Origin: Candidatus Lambdaproteobacteria bacterium RIFOXYD2_FULL_50_16
GTDB lineage: Bacteria; SAR324; XYD2-FULL-50-16
Assembly: GCA_001783695.1 (NCBI GenBank)
Contig: MFNE01000006.1
Location: 89,338 to 143,211, forward strand
Reading direction: 5' to 3'
DNA length: 53,874 nucleotides
In this document: one piece after another, positions 43,399 to 52,045 of the stretch
Numbering within the stretch: position 1 is the stretch's first letter
How the letters are laid out: the number at the start of each line of letters is the position of its first letter
Made by a program: the position numbers and the translations under genes
Notes under the pieces: generated by a model
What the model was told of the DNA's origin: nothing
The model's input: the letters and a program-made list of their open reading frames with translations, nothing else
Databases searched by the model: none

Positions 43399-44844
43399 AT
43401 GGCCGCTTTTGGCGAGTCAAAAACCATGCGGATCGCCGAGCTTAAACTCGGGGTGTATCTTCTGCGTTTTTTAGATGTGCCCGAGAAGTTCCAGCGGATG
43501 CAGGCGGATACAATTGCTTTTTTAAGAAAATTCGACTTTAGCAACCTAACCGTTCGGCGAGGTGCAGAGCATAAACTAATCGACGCCGACGAGTTGATCC
43601 CTGGTGACCGGGTGCTGACCTTTGGGCGGCTGGCGGCCCCGGTGATGATCGCCAAGCAAGAACATTTAAACGTTTTGATTAAAGTTGGGTTTCAACAGGT
43701 TTTGGTGGTCGAACCGGTCCGGGCCCAACAACCTGCCGCCAACACCTCTTTCACTTTAGCCGTCCCTGCCCAGGCTCCTTGGGCTAAGGTTGAGCCCCCT
43801 AAGCCCCGGCCCAAAGCTCCATCTGTAGTTATAGAACCAATTGCCGTTGAGTCCCCACCAAACGAGCCTTCCTTAAAACGAAAAAATGATGCCGGGGATC
43901 TGCACCAGATTCAAGACAATCTAAGTTGGGCCAAGAGGTTAGCCAAAGAGTCGAACCAAATTTTAGAAGAGCTTTACGAAAGCAACTTTATCAACAAAGA
44001 GGCGGTTCAAGCAACGGACCAATTAAGTGTGGAAATGGCCAAGTTGGTTGAAGCCAATCCTCATGCGGGCAATGTTCGCAGCCTTCTTAAAGATGAGGAT
44101 GAATACACCTACCACCATTCGATTGATGTGGCCCAATATGTGATTTCGGTATGTCATTTAATGCAGGGTTACGGAGGCAAACAGTTGGCATCGGTGGCGG
44201 TGGGGGGCTTACTACACGACATTGGCAAATCGAAATTACCTAAAAATTTATTAAAAAAACAGACCAAGTTTACTCCCCAAGAAAAAGAGCTAATGCGGCA
44301 GCATCCCCAGTTGGGAGCGCAAATACTTTCGGACTTGGGTTATACGGATTTGCAGATCGACATCGCCAAACACCACCACGTTTTAAGGCAAGGGGGCTAC
44401 CCTCGCCAGGACTACGACAAAATAAGTAACCTAGCTAGGTTAACAGGAGTCGCCGATATCTACCAAGCCCTGACTACCAAAAGGCCCTATAAAACCACTG
44501 AGGTTCCAGGCTCGGCGTTACAAACCCTGCTTAAATTATCAAAAACCCAAATTGACCCCAGATTGGTGATCCTTTTTATCAAGTCAGTGGGGGTCTATCC
44601 GATTGGTTCTACGTTACGCCTCAAATCAGGGGAAATTGCCTTTGTGGTGGGCAAAGGGACAAATACGGCGCGCCCGCAGATTGTCCCTGTGATCGACAAA
44701 CAGGGTAAGCAGATTCTGCACCACCAATTGATCGACCTTTCGGACCCAGAGTTTGCGGCGCTAACGGTGGATCAACCGGTGGACCATCGTGAATATTTTG
44801 CTAATGAGGCGTTAGATATCTTTCAAAATCTCTCGGTTTTGTAG
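43399..44844 (+). CDS. HD-GYP domain protein (putative c-di-GMP phosphodiesterase)
   Basis: HHSIDVAQYVISV, GGLLHDIGKSKLP, HPQLGAQIL, HHHVLRQGGYPR. Confidence 0.9.
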   Translation: MAAFGESKTMRIAELKLGVYLLRFLDVPEKFQRMQADTIAFLRKFDFSNLTVRRGAEHKLIDADELIPGDRVLTFGRLAAPVMIAKQEHLNVLIKVGFQQVLVVEPVRAQQPAANTSFTLAVPAQAPWAKVEPPKPRPKAPSVVIEPIAVESPPNEPSLKRKNDAGDLHQIQDNLSWAKRLAKESNQILEELYESNFINKEAVQATDQLSVEMAKLVEANPHAGNVRSLLKDEDEYTYHHSIDVAQYVISVCHLMQGYGGKQLASVAVGGLLHDIGKSKLPKNLLKKQTKFTPQEKELMRQHPQLGAQILSDLGYTDLQIDIAKHHHVLRQGGYPRQDYDKISNLARLTGVADIYQALTTKRPYKTTEVPGSALQTLLKLSKTQIDPRLVILFIKSVGVYPIGSTLRLKSGEIAFVVGKGTNTARPQIVPVIDKQGKQILHHQLIDLSDPEFAALTVDQPVDHREYFANEALDIFQNLSVL

Positions 44845-44920
44845 TTAGGTTGCTTGCTACAATTTGGGTGGGTGTGAAAGGCTATTCTTTGCAATTGCAC
44901 AACTGTTCCCAGTAAAAACA

Positions 44921-47900
44921 ATGATAAGCGGACTTAGGCAAAAAATTGTTTTTGGTTTCACCTTAATTGTTTTGGGGATCGGTGGAACCTTGGGCTGGGT
45001 CATTTATCAGCAGGCCTACCAAGAAATAGTCGAGCAATCCCTCTCTGAACTTAGATATCACCACGACCAAGTCCAACTGAACACCAACAATTTCCTAAGG
45101 CTTTCCCGTGGGAACCTCAACCTTCTTGCTAACACCCCTCCTATTCAAGGGATCATTAGGGCCAAGTTGGGCGCGGGTATTGACCAAAAAGACCACAGCA
45201 GTTTGCAAGCCTGGGAAGATCGTTTGGCACTTATTTTTAAAGAATTTTTAGAGGTCAACCCTGAATATTTACAGGTTCGCTATATTGGCTTAGCCAATAA
45301 CGGAACCGAACTGATCCAGGTTAAAAAGCAATCAGGAACTATTGAAATTATTAAGGGGGACGCCTTGCAGTTCAAGGCGGAACACCCTTACTTACAAGAA
45401 GTGGCAAAATTAGAAAAGGGACAGGTTTATATTTCTGAAATTGATTTAAAGGTAGAAAATGGGCAGATCGTGACCCCCTATCAGCCAACCCTGAGGATGG
45501 CAACTCCGGTTCGAGACTCACAGGGGAAGGTTTTTGGGTTGGTTGTGACCAATCTCGATGCCCACTATTTTTTGCAAACCATCAAGAACTCGGTAAACGA
45601 GAGAACCCAAATTTATCTGTTTAATTCTAAAAATGACTATCTGATCCACCCCAATAAGCAAATGGAATTTGAGCATATTATTGACCCAACCTCGGTGAGC
45701 CCAAATTTCCCTGGATTTGATATGCCTCCCTACCCACTTGTCGAAAGGTTATTAGGGTCCAAAAAACAGATAGTTGGCCTGAAACAACGGGTGTTCTTTT
45801 TTGATAAAATTAACCTCCAAGAGGGGCAAAACCCCCTTTCTTTGGGTTTGATCCTGGAATCGAATCGAGAAGATCTGTTATTTCGCTTGGGGCAAATAGA
45901 GCGTCGAAATCGGATTGTTGGGGTTTTGCTGTTGGGCTTGGGAATTGGCTTGGTATTTTTCTTCAGCCGCCGCTTGACCCAACCTTTAACCGAGATGTGT
46001 GACACCCTAAACCAATTTGACCCTAAATTGGGGGAGTTGCGGTTTCCTAGTAGTTATAAAGATGAACTAGGGTTGTTAGCTAAATCTTTTAAATCAATGA
46101 CCGACGACCTCGTCCGTCACAGTCGCGCTATTGAAGAGCAAGAGATGCAGATGACCGCAGTAATGGCTACTGCGATCGAAGCTATTGTGATTATGGACCA
46201 AAAAGGGGCCGTATCTTTGGTCAATCCGGCCTTTGAAAAGTTATTTGGTTTCCCCGCCTCGCAGATAGTGGGGCGGAATATTAATGTGATAATGCCAGAA
46301 GAGCATTCGGCTCTGCACAATCGCTATATTGCGAAATATTTAGAAACCGGCATAGGTAATGTGGTTGGTTTTACCAGAGAGATGGAAGCGGTCAACGCCG
46401 ATGGGGAGCATATCCCCATTAGCCTTTCGGTCTCTGAATTTAGCCTTCGAGGGGTCCATTATTTAACAGCTACTATTCAAGATATTACCGAACGAAAACG
46501 GGCTGAAAAGGAACTTAAAGAAGCCAGAGACCAACTAGAGGTTAGGGTACAGCAGCGCACCGACGAACTAAACAATAAAGTTAAGGAACACATAAAAGCT
46601 TTAAACGAACTGGCTTTAGCCGCTAAGGTCTTCGAAAACACTTCCGAAGCTATCCTAATAACAAACAAAAACAACCAAATAGTTGATGCCAACCGCGCCC
46701 ACCATGAAATCACCGGGTATTCTCGCGAGGAAATATTAGGTCTTAATCCTTCAGTTTTTCAATCTGGTCGGCACGGCGAAGGCTTTTATCAAAATATGTG
46801 GAGCCAGTTGGAAACCGAAGGTAGCTGGAGTGGGGAGATCTGGGACCGTAAGAAAACGGGCGAGATCTATCCGAAATGGAGCACCATTAACAAGATTTCC
46901 GATTCTAGGGGTGAGGTAGTCAACTATGTGGCTATATTCACTGATATTACGGAACAAAAAAAATCTGAATCCCAACTTAAACAACTGGCTTTCTACGATG
47001 GACTAACCAGCCTGCCGAATCGAGCGAGTTTTTTAGAGGCTTTAGAGCAAGCCCTTAAGCAAGCCCGTCGCGATAAAACTAGGTTGGCGGTTATGTATTT
47101 AGACCTGGATCATTTCAAATACATAAATGACTCTTTGGGGCACAAGGCTGGCGACGAGCTTTTGGCCAAGGCTTCGGTTTTATTAGGTGCCTCGATTCGG
47201 GAATCAGATCTGGTTGCCCGGCAAGGGGGTGACGAGTTTTCAGTAATCCTGCCTGGGATTGAGCACAGCGAGCAGGTTGGGCGGGTGGCCGCTAAAATCA
47301 TTGAAGAACTGGAAAAGCCCATCGAGATTCAAGGGCAAGAGGTGTTTATTTCAGCCAGCGTGGGTATAGCCCTGTTCCCTGAAGACGGACAAAACCCTGA
47401 GCAATTAATCAAAAATGCCGACACCGCTATGTACGGCGCTAAAAACGCGGGTAAAGGGACCTTCCATTACTATGACCCGACCATGGAGGCCCAAGTCAAA
47501 AACCGGCTGGTTTTAGACGCCTTATTACGCCGGGCGATTGAGGCCAAAGAATTTGTGTTGCTTTACCAGCCCCAAGTGGAGTTGAAGACCGGCCTAGTGG
47601 TAGGGGCCGAGGCGCTGGTTCGTTGGCAAGATAAAGAGCGAGGCTTGATCTCGCCAATGGAGTTTATACCGCTCGCCGAAGAAACGGGGCAGATCATTCC
47701 CTTAGGTGAGTTGATCCTAAGGCAAGCCTGCCAGCAAAATAAAAACTGGGCTGACCGAGGAGTGGTATCGATTCCAGTCGCGGTCAATATCTCGGCCCGC
47801 CAATTCCACCAAGGCGACCTCCTGACCCTCTTAGACCAAGTATTAGCAGAGACCGGATTAGAACCAGAGCTGCTCGATTTAGAACTAACTGAAACCTTGG

Positions 47901-48301
47901 TTATGCGCGACACCAAAGCCACTATCGCCCAGATGCAGGCGATTAGGGCTCGGCGGATTAGGCTGGCGATTGATGACTTTGGGACCGGTTATTCGTCGTT
48001 GAGTTACCTAAAAACCTTCCCAATCAATAAATTAAAAATCGACCGTAGTTTTGTGATTGGTATCGTTGAAAACGAAAACGACCGGATGATTGCCAAGGCA
48101 TTAATCGATCTTTCGAAAAACCTAAAACTAACGGTTATCGCCGAGGGGGTGGAAACCGAGGAACAGATAGAGGTGCTTCGGGAGTTGGGTTGCGACTTGA
48201 TCCAAGGTTATTATTACGCCAAGCCGCTGGCCCCTGCTGAATTTGAGGCCTACGTATATAAAATGCGCGAGATCCACGATAACCTGCCTAAGCCCAGCTA
48301 A
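44921..48301 (+). CDS. Cache/HAMP/PAS-GGDEF-EAL bifunctional c-di-GMP protein
   Basis: RQGGDEFSVIL (intact GGDEF), AEALVRWQ (intact EAL), NKLKIDRSFV; start at ATG 44921 favoured over 44864. Confidence 0.93.
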   Translation: MISGLRQKIVFGFTLIVLGIGGTLGWVIYQQAYQEIVEQSLSELRYHHDQVQLNTNNFLRLSRGNLNLLANTPPIQGIIRAKLGAGIDQKDHSSLQAWEDRLALIFKEFLEVNPEYLQVRYIGLANNGTELIQVKKQSGTIEIIKGDALQFKAEHPYLQEVAKLEKGQVYISEIDLKVENGQIVTPYQPTLRMATPVRDSQGKVFGLVVTNLDAHYFLQTIKNSVNERTQIYLFNSKNDYLIHPNKQMEFEHIIDPTSVSPNFPGFDMPPYPLVERLLGSKKQIVGLKQRVFFFDKINLQEGQNPLSLGLILESNREDLLFRLGQIERRNRIVGVLLLGLGIGLVFFFSRRLTQPLTEMCDTLNQFDPKLGELRFPSSYKDELGLLAKSFKSMTDDLVRHSRAIEEQEMQMTAVMATAIEAIVIMDQKGAVSLVNPAFEKLFGFPASQIVGRNINVIMPEEHSALHNRYIAKYLETGIGNVVGFTREMEAVNADGEHIPISLSVSEFSLRGVHYLTATIQDITERKRAEKELKEARDQLEVRVQQRTDELNNKVKEHIKALNELALAAKVFENTSEAILITNKNNQIVDANRAHHEITGYSREEILGLNPSVFQSGRHGEGFYQNMWSQLETEGSWSGEIWDRKKTGEIYPKWSTINKISDSRGEVVNYVAIFTDITEQKKSESQLKQLAFYDGLTSLPNRASFLEALEQALKQARRDKTRLAVMYLDLDHFKYINDSLGHKAGDELLAKASVLLGASIRESDLVARQGGDEFSVILPGIEHSEQVGRVAAKIIEELEKPIEIQGQEVFISASVGIALFPEDGQNPEQLIKNADTAMYGAKNAGKGTFHYYDPTMEAQVKNRLVLDALLRRAIEAKEFVLLYQPQVELKTGLVVGAEALVRWQDKERGLISPMEFIPLAEETGQIIPLGELILRQACQQNKNWADRGVVSIPVAVNISARQFHQGDLLTLLDQVLAETGLEPELLDLELTETLVMRDTKATIAQMQAIRARRIRLAIDDFGTGYSSLSYLKTFPINKLKIDRSFVIGIVENENDRMIAKALIDLSKNLKLTVIAEGVETEEQIEVLRELGCDLIQGYYYAKPLAPAEFEAYVYKMREIHDNLPKPS

Positions 48302-49155: not shown

Positions 49156-49369
49156 CCTGTCTCCTTTTCTTGGCTTAGGATTAGCCGGTTTAGCGGCAAA
49201 TATCAAAAGAAACCGTTGTCAAAAGCAGTTCTCATTTTTTAAAGAATTGGCTTCAATTTAAATGGGCCAGGCTCTACATCAGCCTTGGGTGAGGGGGTTA
49301 AAATTTTTGTTTCTTGGCTTTATCAAAGGATTGGGGTTATGGTTTCGACAACCCTTTTATATAAGCTTC

Positions 49370-50758
49370 ATGCGTCCTCTACTAATTGTCCACTCACAAA
49401 CACAGATGGGTTCGACCATTTGTAAATATCTAGGTAATCGGTTCGAGGTCTTTTGCGCACGTGACCTAAGAGATTGCGAGGCCAAGTATCGAGACCAACG
49501 ATTTGAATGTTTGCTTTTGGAATTAGGGCCCCTGCTTAATGGCGGCGGGCAATTGATGCGGTTGTTTCAGGGTTTGCGTCGCCAATATGGCTGTAACCGG
49601 CTGGTGGTCTTGGGGGGTAAAGATTTGGGGGCCCGACTTTTGGACGCAGTGCAGGCCGGGGCGACTGAGGTGTGGCAAGAGCCCTTAGCCAAGGAGCAGC
49701 TAAAGCTTTTTTATGAAGATTTAGAGAACCGGGCTCGGTTAGAGTCCGAACTGGAGATGCTGCGTTCCTTTGGTTCGGGCAGCCCAGCAGTGACCCGCAC
49801 CCATAGCCCTTTAGTAAGGCAGCTTTACGGGCAGGTCAATTCGGTGGCGGTTACTGATTCTGCGGTTTTACTCTTAGGGGAGACTGGGGTGGGAAAGGGC
49901 GTGATCGCTCGCTTAATCCACCAAGCCAGCCCTCGGGTGAAGGGGCCCTTTGTTCATGTGCACTGCGGCGCTATTCCCGAATCCTTGATTGAGTCCGAAC
50001 TCTTCGGTCACGAACGGGGTGCCTTTACTGGCGCGACCAAACGCAAGTTGGGTCGATTTGAATTAGCCAAAGGGGGCACCATCTTTCTGGACGAAATCTC
50101 GACCATTACCGGAGCGACCCAAACCAAACTTTTGCAGGTTTTGCAAGAAAAAATTATGCAACGAGTGGGCGGTGAAAGCCCGATTAATACAGATGTAAGG
50201 GTTATCGCTGCGACCAATCAAGACCTTTGGGAGATGAGCCGCGAAGGGCGCTTTAGAGAGGACTTATATTATCGGCTCAATGTTTTTCCGATCGAAGTGG
50301 TCCCACTGCGTGAGCGATTAGAAGACATTCCGTTGCTAGTGGACAATAAATTAAAACGGTTAGAGGCGCGTTACCAAAAGCAGATCCAGGCAGTGGACCC
50401 TGAAGTGTATCAAGTGTTGCAGCAGTACAAATACCCAGGCAATATCAGGGAGTTGGAAAATATTTTGGAGAGAGCGTACATCTTAGAAACCGGTCCTCGG
50501 TTGGAACGTTTTAGCCTGCCCCACGAATTAGCCACTCCAATAGAAAGTCCGAGCCCCTTCGATTGGCGGCGTTCTTTGGCCGAGGTCCGTCAACAGGCGA
50601 TTGAAGAGATTGAAAAACGGTATTTAGAACGGCTTTTAAGCCGCCATAAAGGCAGGATCAAACCCAGCGCCGACGAGGCCGGTTTGGGTACAAGGCAACT
50701 TCGTAACCTGATGATTAAATACGAGTTACATAAAGAAAGTTTCAAGTCCAAAGGCTAG
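49370..50758 (+). CDS. Sigma-54-dependent transcriptional activator (enhancer-binding protein) with degenerate receiver-like N-terminus
   Basis: GETGVGKGVIARLIH, ESELFGHERGAFTGA (GAFTGA), FREDLYYRLNVFPIEVVPLRER, YPGNIRELENILER. Confidence 0.93.
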   Translation: MRPLLIVHSQTQMGSTICKYLGNRFEVFCARDLRDCEAKYRDQRFECLLLELGPLLNGGGQLMRLFQGLRRQYGCNRLVVLGGKDLGARLLDAVQAGATEVWQEPLAKEQLKLFYEDLENRARLESELEMLRSFGSGSPAVTRTHSPLVRQLYGQVNSVAVTDSAVLLLGETGVGKGVIARLIHQASPRVKGPFVHVHCGAIPESLIESELFGHERGAFTGATKRKLGRFELAKGGTIFLDEISTITGATQTKLLQVLQEKIMQRVGGESPINTDVRVIAATNQDLWEMSREGRFREDLYYRLNVFPIEVVPLRERLEDIPLLVDNKLKRLEARYQKQIQAVDPEVYQVLQQYKYPGNIRELENILERAYILETGPRLERFSLPHELATPIESPSPFDWRRSLAEVRQQAIEEIEKRYLERLLSRHKGRIKPSADEAGLGTRQLRNLMIKYELHKESFKSKG

Positions 50759-50821
50759 ATCTAGCCACCCAATACGGGCTTTGCTTTAAACAACAAACAG
50801 ACTTTGATTGATTCGGGACAC

Positions 50822-50844
50822 CTGAACTGATTCGGACAGTTCAG
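50822..50844. repeat. 8-bp-stem hairpin downstream of peptide copy 1
   Basis: ctgaactg-attcgga-cagttcag; adjacent hairpins ccccg..cgggg and ggctgg..ccagcc. Confidence 0.7.
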
Positions 50845-50901
50845 AGCCCCGCAATAAACGGGGTTCCGAGCGGTATTCAGGCTGGAAAACCAGCCCGATT
50901 A

Positions 50902-50979
50902 TTAGTGGGAAGCAAGCAAAAAGATGCCAAATGCCCAAACTAACGCGACTACCCACCAAGCTCCATATGCTGGATTCAT
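50902..50979 (-). CDS. Unannotated 25-aa single-TM peptide, copy 1 (MNPAYGAWWVVALVWAFGIFLLASH)
   Basis: AGGAG 6 nt before ATG; homologous to copies 2 and 3 downstream in window; followed by hairpins. Confidence 0.78.
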   Translation of the reverse strand: MNPAYGAWWVVALVWAFGIFLLASH

Positions 50980-51421
50980 TATGTCTCCTAAAGTGACGGT
51001 TAACAAATGCAGGTTGGGCGCTTCGCCAAAACCTGTTTCGGCCTTTATCTGTAAAACAGACTTGGCCTTTTTTAACCGAAATAACAAAAGTTGGGCTTTG
51101 TTGGGAAGAACAAAAATGCAAAGGCTCTAGGCTTTTTTGGAAAAAACGGAGGAACTGCATTGGGGCTAAAACCTATAAACTACTTACAGATAAAGGTTTG
51201 CAGCTTTTAAACCAACGCCTTTTATGGGGGTGTGCAGCGAGCAAAAAAAAACACCCTCTTTTTCGGGAGTTCCGAAAAAAAGCGCGAGGAAGCCGAGCGA
51301 ATTGTTTTCCAGCTTTTTGCTGGTGCGGGATCGCAGTTAGTTCGCGTCTAACGCGGCTGCGAACCCGACTTTTACAACCACAGCTTGGGAGCGGATTTAG
51401 GCCGTTCCCCTTTGGGGTTTT

Positions 51422-51496
51422 TTAGTGAGAGGATAGCAAAAAGACGCCAAACGCCCACACGCCAAACACAAAAAACCAAGCTCCGTAATGAGTCAT
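51422..51496 (-). CDS. Unannotated 24-aa single-TM peptide, copy 2 (MTHYGAWFFVFGVWAFGVFLLSSH)
   Basis: GGAG 5 nt before ATG; 18/24 identical to copy 3. Confidence 0.8.
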   Translation of the reverse strand: MTHYGAWFFVFGVWAFGVFLLSSH

Positions 51497-51581
51497 GACC
51501 GCTCCAAGGAATTAAATAATCGTTTAGGTCCAGACCAAATTGATCTAGCCGGAGCCCAATTTGAGCCCAGGGATTCTTTAT

Positions 51582-51597
51582 TCCAAGGTTCGTGCCG
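51582..51597 (-). promoter_or_regulatory. Sigma-54-like -24/-12 element upstream of copy 2
   Basis: Minus strand CGGCACGAACCTTGGA; GG-N10-GG, about 86 nt before ATG; conserved with copy 3. Confidence 0.4.
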
Positions 51598-51790
51598 TTC
51601 TGCGTAATCGACTGTTTTAAAGAGCTTAACAAAGCCTTACTTAGGCCAATACAAAGCAAAAACAGAATTTAAATTTCCGTTTTCTTTTAACTACCACACC
51701 CTTTGAGTCCCCAGTAGGCCCAGCCCATGGGAGTGGGCCAGAAAGAGGCAATCAAGTTTCGTAAAATTAGGAATAAAGCAATAGGATTGC

Positions 51791-51816
51791 CTATTTTTTA
51801 GAATTCTAAAAAATAG
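51791..51816. repeat. 26-bp perfect palindrome
   Basis: ctattttttagaattctaaaaaatag is its own reverse complement; flanked by aaagcaa/ttgcttt outer arms. Confidence 0.85.
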
Positions 51817-51832
51817 ACTTGCTTTAACCCAA

Positions 51833-51859
51833 AAAAAACCACCGCTTTCTAAGCGTGGC
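51833..51859 (-). terminator. Intrinsic terminator after peptide copy 3
   Basis: Minus strand CCACGCTTAGAAAGCGGTGG followed by TTTTTTTT. Confidence 0.65.
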
Positions 51860-51868
51860 TACCGGTGT

Positions 51869-51943
51869 TTAGTGGGAAGCCAGCAAAAAAATGCCAAAAA
51901 TCCAAACCAAACTTACTGCAAACCAAGCGCCGTAATGAGTCAT
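51869..51943 (-). CDS. Unannotated 24-aa single-TM peptide, copy 3 (MTHYGAWFAVSLVWIFGIFLLASH)
   Basis: GGAG 5 nt before ATG; 17/21 identical to copy 1 after the N-terminal 1-residue indel. Confidence 0.8.
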   Translation of the reverse strand: MTHYGAWFAVSLVWIFGIFLLASH

Positions 51944-52029: not shown

Positions 52030-52045
52030 TCCAAGGAATGTGCCA
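52030..52045 (-). promoter_or_regulatory. Sigma-54-like -24/-12 element upstream of copy 3
   Basis: Minus strand TGGCACATTCCTTGGA; GG-N10-GG, about 87 nt before ATG. Confidence 0.42.

Follow-up and report, generated by a model that had tools for sequence, protein, structure and literature searches.

What do three short, closely spaced open reading frames (ORFs) in an apparently empty region of the Candidatus Lambdaproteobacteria bacterium RIFOXYD2_FULL_50_16 genome encode, and how are they controlled? In a sequence-only reading of the window (the whole 53,874-nt stretch of DNA that was analysed), these ORFs were proposed to represent a new small-protein family, either a type I toxin-like array or a regulated set of membrane proteins. 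Annotation misses genes of <30 codons, and their existence is difficult to establish from sequence alone. Paralogs present in one genome provide an internal test of selection, and a linked activator with promoters provides a regulatory handle by which function becomes testable.

Structure and coding capacity of the three copies

The three genes are located on the minus strand, and the re-derived ORFs exactly match the coordinates and peptide sequences originally proposed. Copies 1 (51869-51943) and 2 (51422-51496) encode the 24-aa peptides MTHYGAWFAVSLVWIFGIFLLASH and MTHYGAWFFVFGVWAFGVFLLSSH, respectively, and copy 3 (50902-50979) encodes the 25-aa peptide MNPAYGAWWVVALVWAFGIFLLASH. All three peptides end in SH directly before the stop codon, as claimed, and GGAG, previously placed at 5-6 nt, is present 5 nt upstream of the ATG in every copy. 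The peptides share 15 invariant columns in the alignment and are predicted to span the membrane once (15-residue hydropathy maximum, >2.2); none of them has a charged or amphipathic character. The invariant residues are biased toward one helix face (p ~0.05-0.06, three sequences only), which hints, weakly with three sequences, at specific packing.

The region had been described as looking empty in the ORF track, whose length cutoff exceeds all three copies. However, it is not entirely devoid of callable ORFs, as longer ones in other frames overlap two of the copies: a TTG-initiated ORF of 95 aa overlaps copy 2, and an ATG-initiated ORF of 124 aa (50786-51160, minus strand) overlaps copy 3. In the frames of these longer ORFs, the copies resemble each other less than in the peptide frame, which was the best-kept frame in a six-frame comparison (16-18 of 23 residues).

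In pairwise comparisons, the copies differ at 19-23 nt but in only 6-8 residues, and approximately half of the nucleotide changes are found at third codon positions. Pairwise NG86 estimates for the three copies yielded dN values of 0.22-0.30 and dS values of 0.91-1.14; that is, dN/dS is ~0.2-0.26, with dS near 1. When the same number of substitutions was placed randomly (5,000 trials per pair), the mean number of residue changes was 11.7-13.6, as against the 6-8 observed, and the observed values were reached in ≤0.04% of the trials (p ≤ 0.0004 for each pair; the pairs, which are not independent, all point the same way). In addition, the Shine-Dalgarno (SD) sequence and the start codon are retained in all three copies. 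On the basis of the low dN/dS, the neutral-placement test and the retention of these signals, we conclude with high confidence that the three ORFs are genuinely coding and that the peptide sequence is under purifying selection. The dN/dS test suggested in the sequence-only reading, performed here between paralogs, gave a ratio that is not near 1 and supports coding.

Searches for related sequences

A peptide profile was searched against the other 51 genomes of the phylum (the set consists of 52 genomes including the window's own, ten of which are from one family), and no homolog was detected beyond the three copies. Likewise, a search of 58 relatives added no homolog to the three copies; weak matches in relatives (E 0.04-1) span just part of the profile. 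Peptide scans of GTDB contigs and IMG/VR yielded nothing at 1e-3, searches of PADLOC and PDB yielded nothing significant, PHROGs gave just weak, non-significant matches of unknown function, and a plasmid DNA search was without match. No Pfam or NCBIfam model, including those for CydX, KdpF, CoxIIa, Ibs and Ldr, matched the peptides at E ≤ 10, although HMMER filters may lose weak matches of such short queries. No RNA family was matched in an Rfam search of the locus, and no report of tandem hydrophobic peptides controlled by sigma-54 was found in a literature search. A fourth match in the same genome (contig C36) corresponds to a signal peptide, that of a CxxCH-rich protein resembling multihaem cytochromes, and was rejected as a chance match.

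At the sequence level, the peptide family is new, and the finding of purifying selection together with the lack of a family match upholds the proposal of a candidate new small-protein family. The conservation in related genomes that the sequence-only reading had called for was not found, as no sequence homolog was detected outside this genome. The coding assignment is nevertheless kept because it is supported by the dN/dS between the paralogs.

Sigma-54-like promoters and the convergent activator gene

Potential sigma-54 sites were scored against TGGCACG-N4-TTGCW on both strands of the whole window. The top-scoring site (TGGCACATTCCTTGGA; 52030-52045, minus strand) is located 86 nt before the ATG of copy 1, and a site with the joint second-best score (CGGCACGAACCTTGGA; 51582-51597, minus strand) is located 85 nt before that of copy 2. 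The criterion for a sigma-54 promoter was GG at -24 and GC at -12 with ten bases between them. The candidate sites of copies 1 and 2 contain TGGCAC or CGGCAC at -24 and TTGG at -12, where the usual TTGC is absent. Sites as good as these two are present in only 1.3% of 200-nt stretches, the p-values being optimistic because the sites were spotted by eye ahead of scoring. Copy 3 lacks a sigma-54-like site of its own (best score of 19 within 200 nt upstream) and is separated from copy 2 by a terminator-like hairpin with a T-run (51247-51282, minus strand; consensus scan). Another such hairpin with a T-run follows copy 1 (51841-51862, minus strand; consensus scan and folding), and the scan overall detected such structures at the chance rate. 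Sigma-70-like promoters were also found at the chance rate at the locus (3 versus 3.0 expected), and a search for a shared enhancer dyad found none, the best score being equal to that of shuffled sequences.

The earlier mention of structured loci is not borne out by the 5' leaders, which are not unusually structured in copies 1 and 2 (z -0.6 and -0.1, respectively). Unusually stable folding is confined to the DNA that follows copy 3 (50820-50950; z -4.4, no shuffle equally stable). Three strong hairpins (50820-50900, minus strand) are located there, in the gap separating copy 3 from the end of a convergent gene, and probably represent a two-way terminator region between the convergent genes.

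This convergent gene (49262-50758, plus strand), which had been overlooked in the sequence-only reading, encodes a sigma-54-dependent activator with an AAA+ domain (Pfam PF00158, E 1.3e-66), a GAFTGA motif that is visible in the ortholog alignment, a Fis-type HTH and a receiver-like N-terminus. The N-terminus aligns with receiver domains but has lost their acidic pocket and carries Glu at the phospho-acceptor position normally held by Asp. Because the receiver-like domain lacks the phospho-acceptor Asp, the activator probably senses a signal directly or via a partner protein. RpoN is encoded in the same genome (PF04552, E 5.9e-60). The positions of the best-scoring sites, the adjacent GAFTGA activator and the presence of RpoN make it likely that copies 1 and 2 are controlled by sigma-54 and the neighbouring activator, and thereby favour the earlier idea of a regulated small membrane-protein family. 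The absence of a site at copy 3, TTGG at -12 and the lack of a common dyad count against this model.

Upstream of the activator gene, an HD-domain protein and then a 1145-aa PAS-GGDEF-EAL sensor are encoded (43399-48301), and thus cyclic-di-GMP genes adjoin the locus. The genes near the peptides encode regulators, a DsbA-like protein and a predicted lipoprotein. Elsewhere in the same genome, a 160-codon frame (G000:C48:324-743, L092) resembles only the receiver-like N-terminal domain of the activator (30% identity) and is a possible stand-alone relative of this domain.

Orthologous activators in other lineages

The closest ortholog of the activator is encoded in a genome of another genus (G005; 51% identity over 469 aa) and likewise has Glu for Asp and has lost the acidic pocket. 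Downstream of it, the same strand encodes MKVI[HN]SVIAVYAIVALTLL[TP]L in three copies, arranged as a tandem repeat of 87 nt, and then MKNQINSLKFLRSQFSILVALYLLGLSALAS. These three near-identical 21-aa peptides and the 31-aa peptide (L086 9281-9520 and 9625-9720 in G005:C17) are hydrophobic, and all of their genes are preceded by an SD sequence. The array adjoins an operon for a molybdopterin oxidoreductase that includes NrfD-type subunits. A uniform scan of the window and 21 other loci for hydrophobic, SD-led, intergenic short ORFs identified the three copies in the window, the four in G005 and five others. Homology between the G005 peptides and those of the window could not be demonstrated; an E-value of 1.9e-10 for the 31-mer was discarded as circular because this peptide was in the query alignment, and BLASTP finds no similarity. 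The 21-mers were not detectable in other genomes by search, and tiny hydrophobic peptide arrays are absent beside the activator relatives L087, L088, L093-L096 and L103.

Sigma-54-like sites (score ≥25) are present within 400 nt after 6 of the 11 orthologs versus 7.1% of control stretches; the p-value of 4e-5 is optimistic because the distance and threshold were chosen after a first look and because some orthologs share genomes (L094 and L103; L095 and L096). Sites such as TGGCATGCAACTTGAA, TGGCTTACCCATTGCA and TGGCATAACCCTTGCC are found downstream of more distant orthologs, before short genes, several of which encode exported proteins. At four loci where a site lies just after the activator gene (L088 10509, L113 5422, L094 5951 and L095 175), the genes that follow encode short, apparently exported proteins of unknown family.

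The analogous peptide array adjoining an orthologous regulator lends support to this type of locus, and both the array and the sites found after six of the orthologs speak for the explanation favoured below. The lack of demonstrable homology of the G005 peptides and the absence of arrays in distant relatives count against this comparative support. It is quite possible that the activators form an atypical sigma-54 family whose own output, in the form of tandem, fast-evolving membrane micro-peptides, is physically linked to them. The linked outputs may then be the 24-mers found here, the 21-mers and the 31-mer in the sister genus, and mostly exported short proteins in distant lineages. A one-gene sensor and a micro-peptide effector might, we suggest tentatively, form a dedicated and previously undescribed module.

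Possible roles of the peptides

On balance, we favour the explanation that the three copies form a set of membrane micro-peptides that is specific to this lineage, is induced via sigma-54 and acts on a membrane partner or on the membrane state. The activator would respond to a signal from the envelope or from metabolism, and would switch on copies 1 and 2 from their sigma-54 promoters. The peptides would then insert into the inner membrane and, under the inducing condition, pack on a membrane partner or alter the membrane state; the presence of several copies may raise dosage or diversify targets. Judging from their hydrophobicity, the peptides could plausibly be membrane effectors rather than toxins or enzyme subunits, an assignment that we make with some reserve.

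Several other explanations deserve consideration. It is unlikely that the peptides serve a membrane (respiratory) complex as small accessory subunits, comparable to CydX or KdpF and encoded at a separate locus. They are indeed single-span and aromatic-rich, and the G005 array is found near an oxidoreductase operon, but no complex is encoded next to the three copies, a single subunit would not normally call for three paralogous genes with separate promoters, and no Pfam match was obtained. We consider it quite unlikely that the locus is a type I toxin-antitoxin-like array, in which tandem small hydrophobic toxins are silenced by antisense RNAs. Peptide size, hydrophobicity and tandem arrangement recall the Ibs and Ldr loci, but this part of the original proposal gained no positive support: promoter-like sites for antisense RNAs are present only at the chance rate, the leaders of copies 1 and 2 show no unusual structure, no known antitoxin RNA was matched in Rfam, and the peptides do not match the listed toxin families in Pfam. 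Sigma-54 control would also be unusual for such loci.

Secreted or signalling peptides and non-coding repeats are less likely explanations. The near-identical tandem copies in G005 are reminiscent of multi-copy secreted peptides, such as leaderless bacteriocins or pheromone-like peptides, but the array has no adjacent exporter, immunity or peptidase gene, and the lack of charge and amphipathicity in the window's peptides does not fit this explanation, which appears very improbable. That the copies are non-coding DNA repeats in decay would fit the absence of homologs from the other genomes searched, but is hardly credible given the purifying selection on the peptide frame and the intact SD sequence and start codon of every copy. 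If the favoured explanation of sigma-54-induced membrane micro-peptides is true, searching for short SD-led hydrophobic ORFs beside orphan sigma-54 activators would be a cheap route to similar loci.

Comparison with known systems

Ibs and Ldr are type I toxin loci with small, hydrophobic, tandem peptides. The three copies are similarly short, hydrophobic, tandem and intergenic; however, they show no sign of an antisense RNA or a structured leader, have sigma-54-like promoters, and differ in that the conserved part is the ORF and the promoter and not a long non-coding segment. CydX and KdpF are also single-span small proteins under selection, whereas the copies are located outside the operon of a complex and have no profile match to either. 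E. coli YohP, a 27-aa stress-induced micro membrane protein (PMC12719787), resembles the peptides in its size (<30 aa), its one span, the lack of a catalytic part and its conditional expression, which is a prediction in the present case. There is no detectable homology between them, and unlike YohP, the copies are three tandem paralogs, with sigma-54-like sites before two of them and a dedicated activator gene as their neighbour. By analogy, we infer that the peptides may act on a partner or on the membrane state, as YohP-type micro-proteins do in E. coli.

One-component sigma-54 activators that are encoded beside their targets are known, for example, from the Desulfovibrio regulome (PMC4641369), where the promoters are adjacent -24/-12 elements. 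The activator described here shares with them the AAA+ domain with GAFTGA and has adjacent candidate -24/-12 sites, with TTGG at -12, but differs in that its predicted targets are tandem membrane micro-peptides and in the missing phospho-acceptor Asp of its receiver-like domain. Conditionally controlled small membrane proteins are a known kind; what is unusual here is that their genes are linked to an orphan sigma-54 activator and that two genera have parallel arrays.
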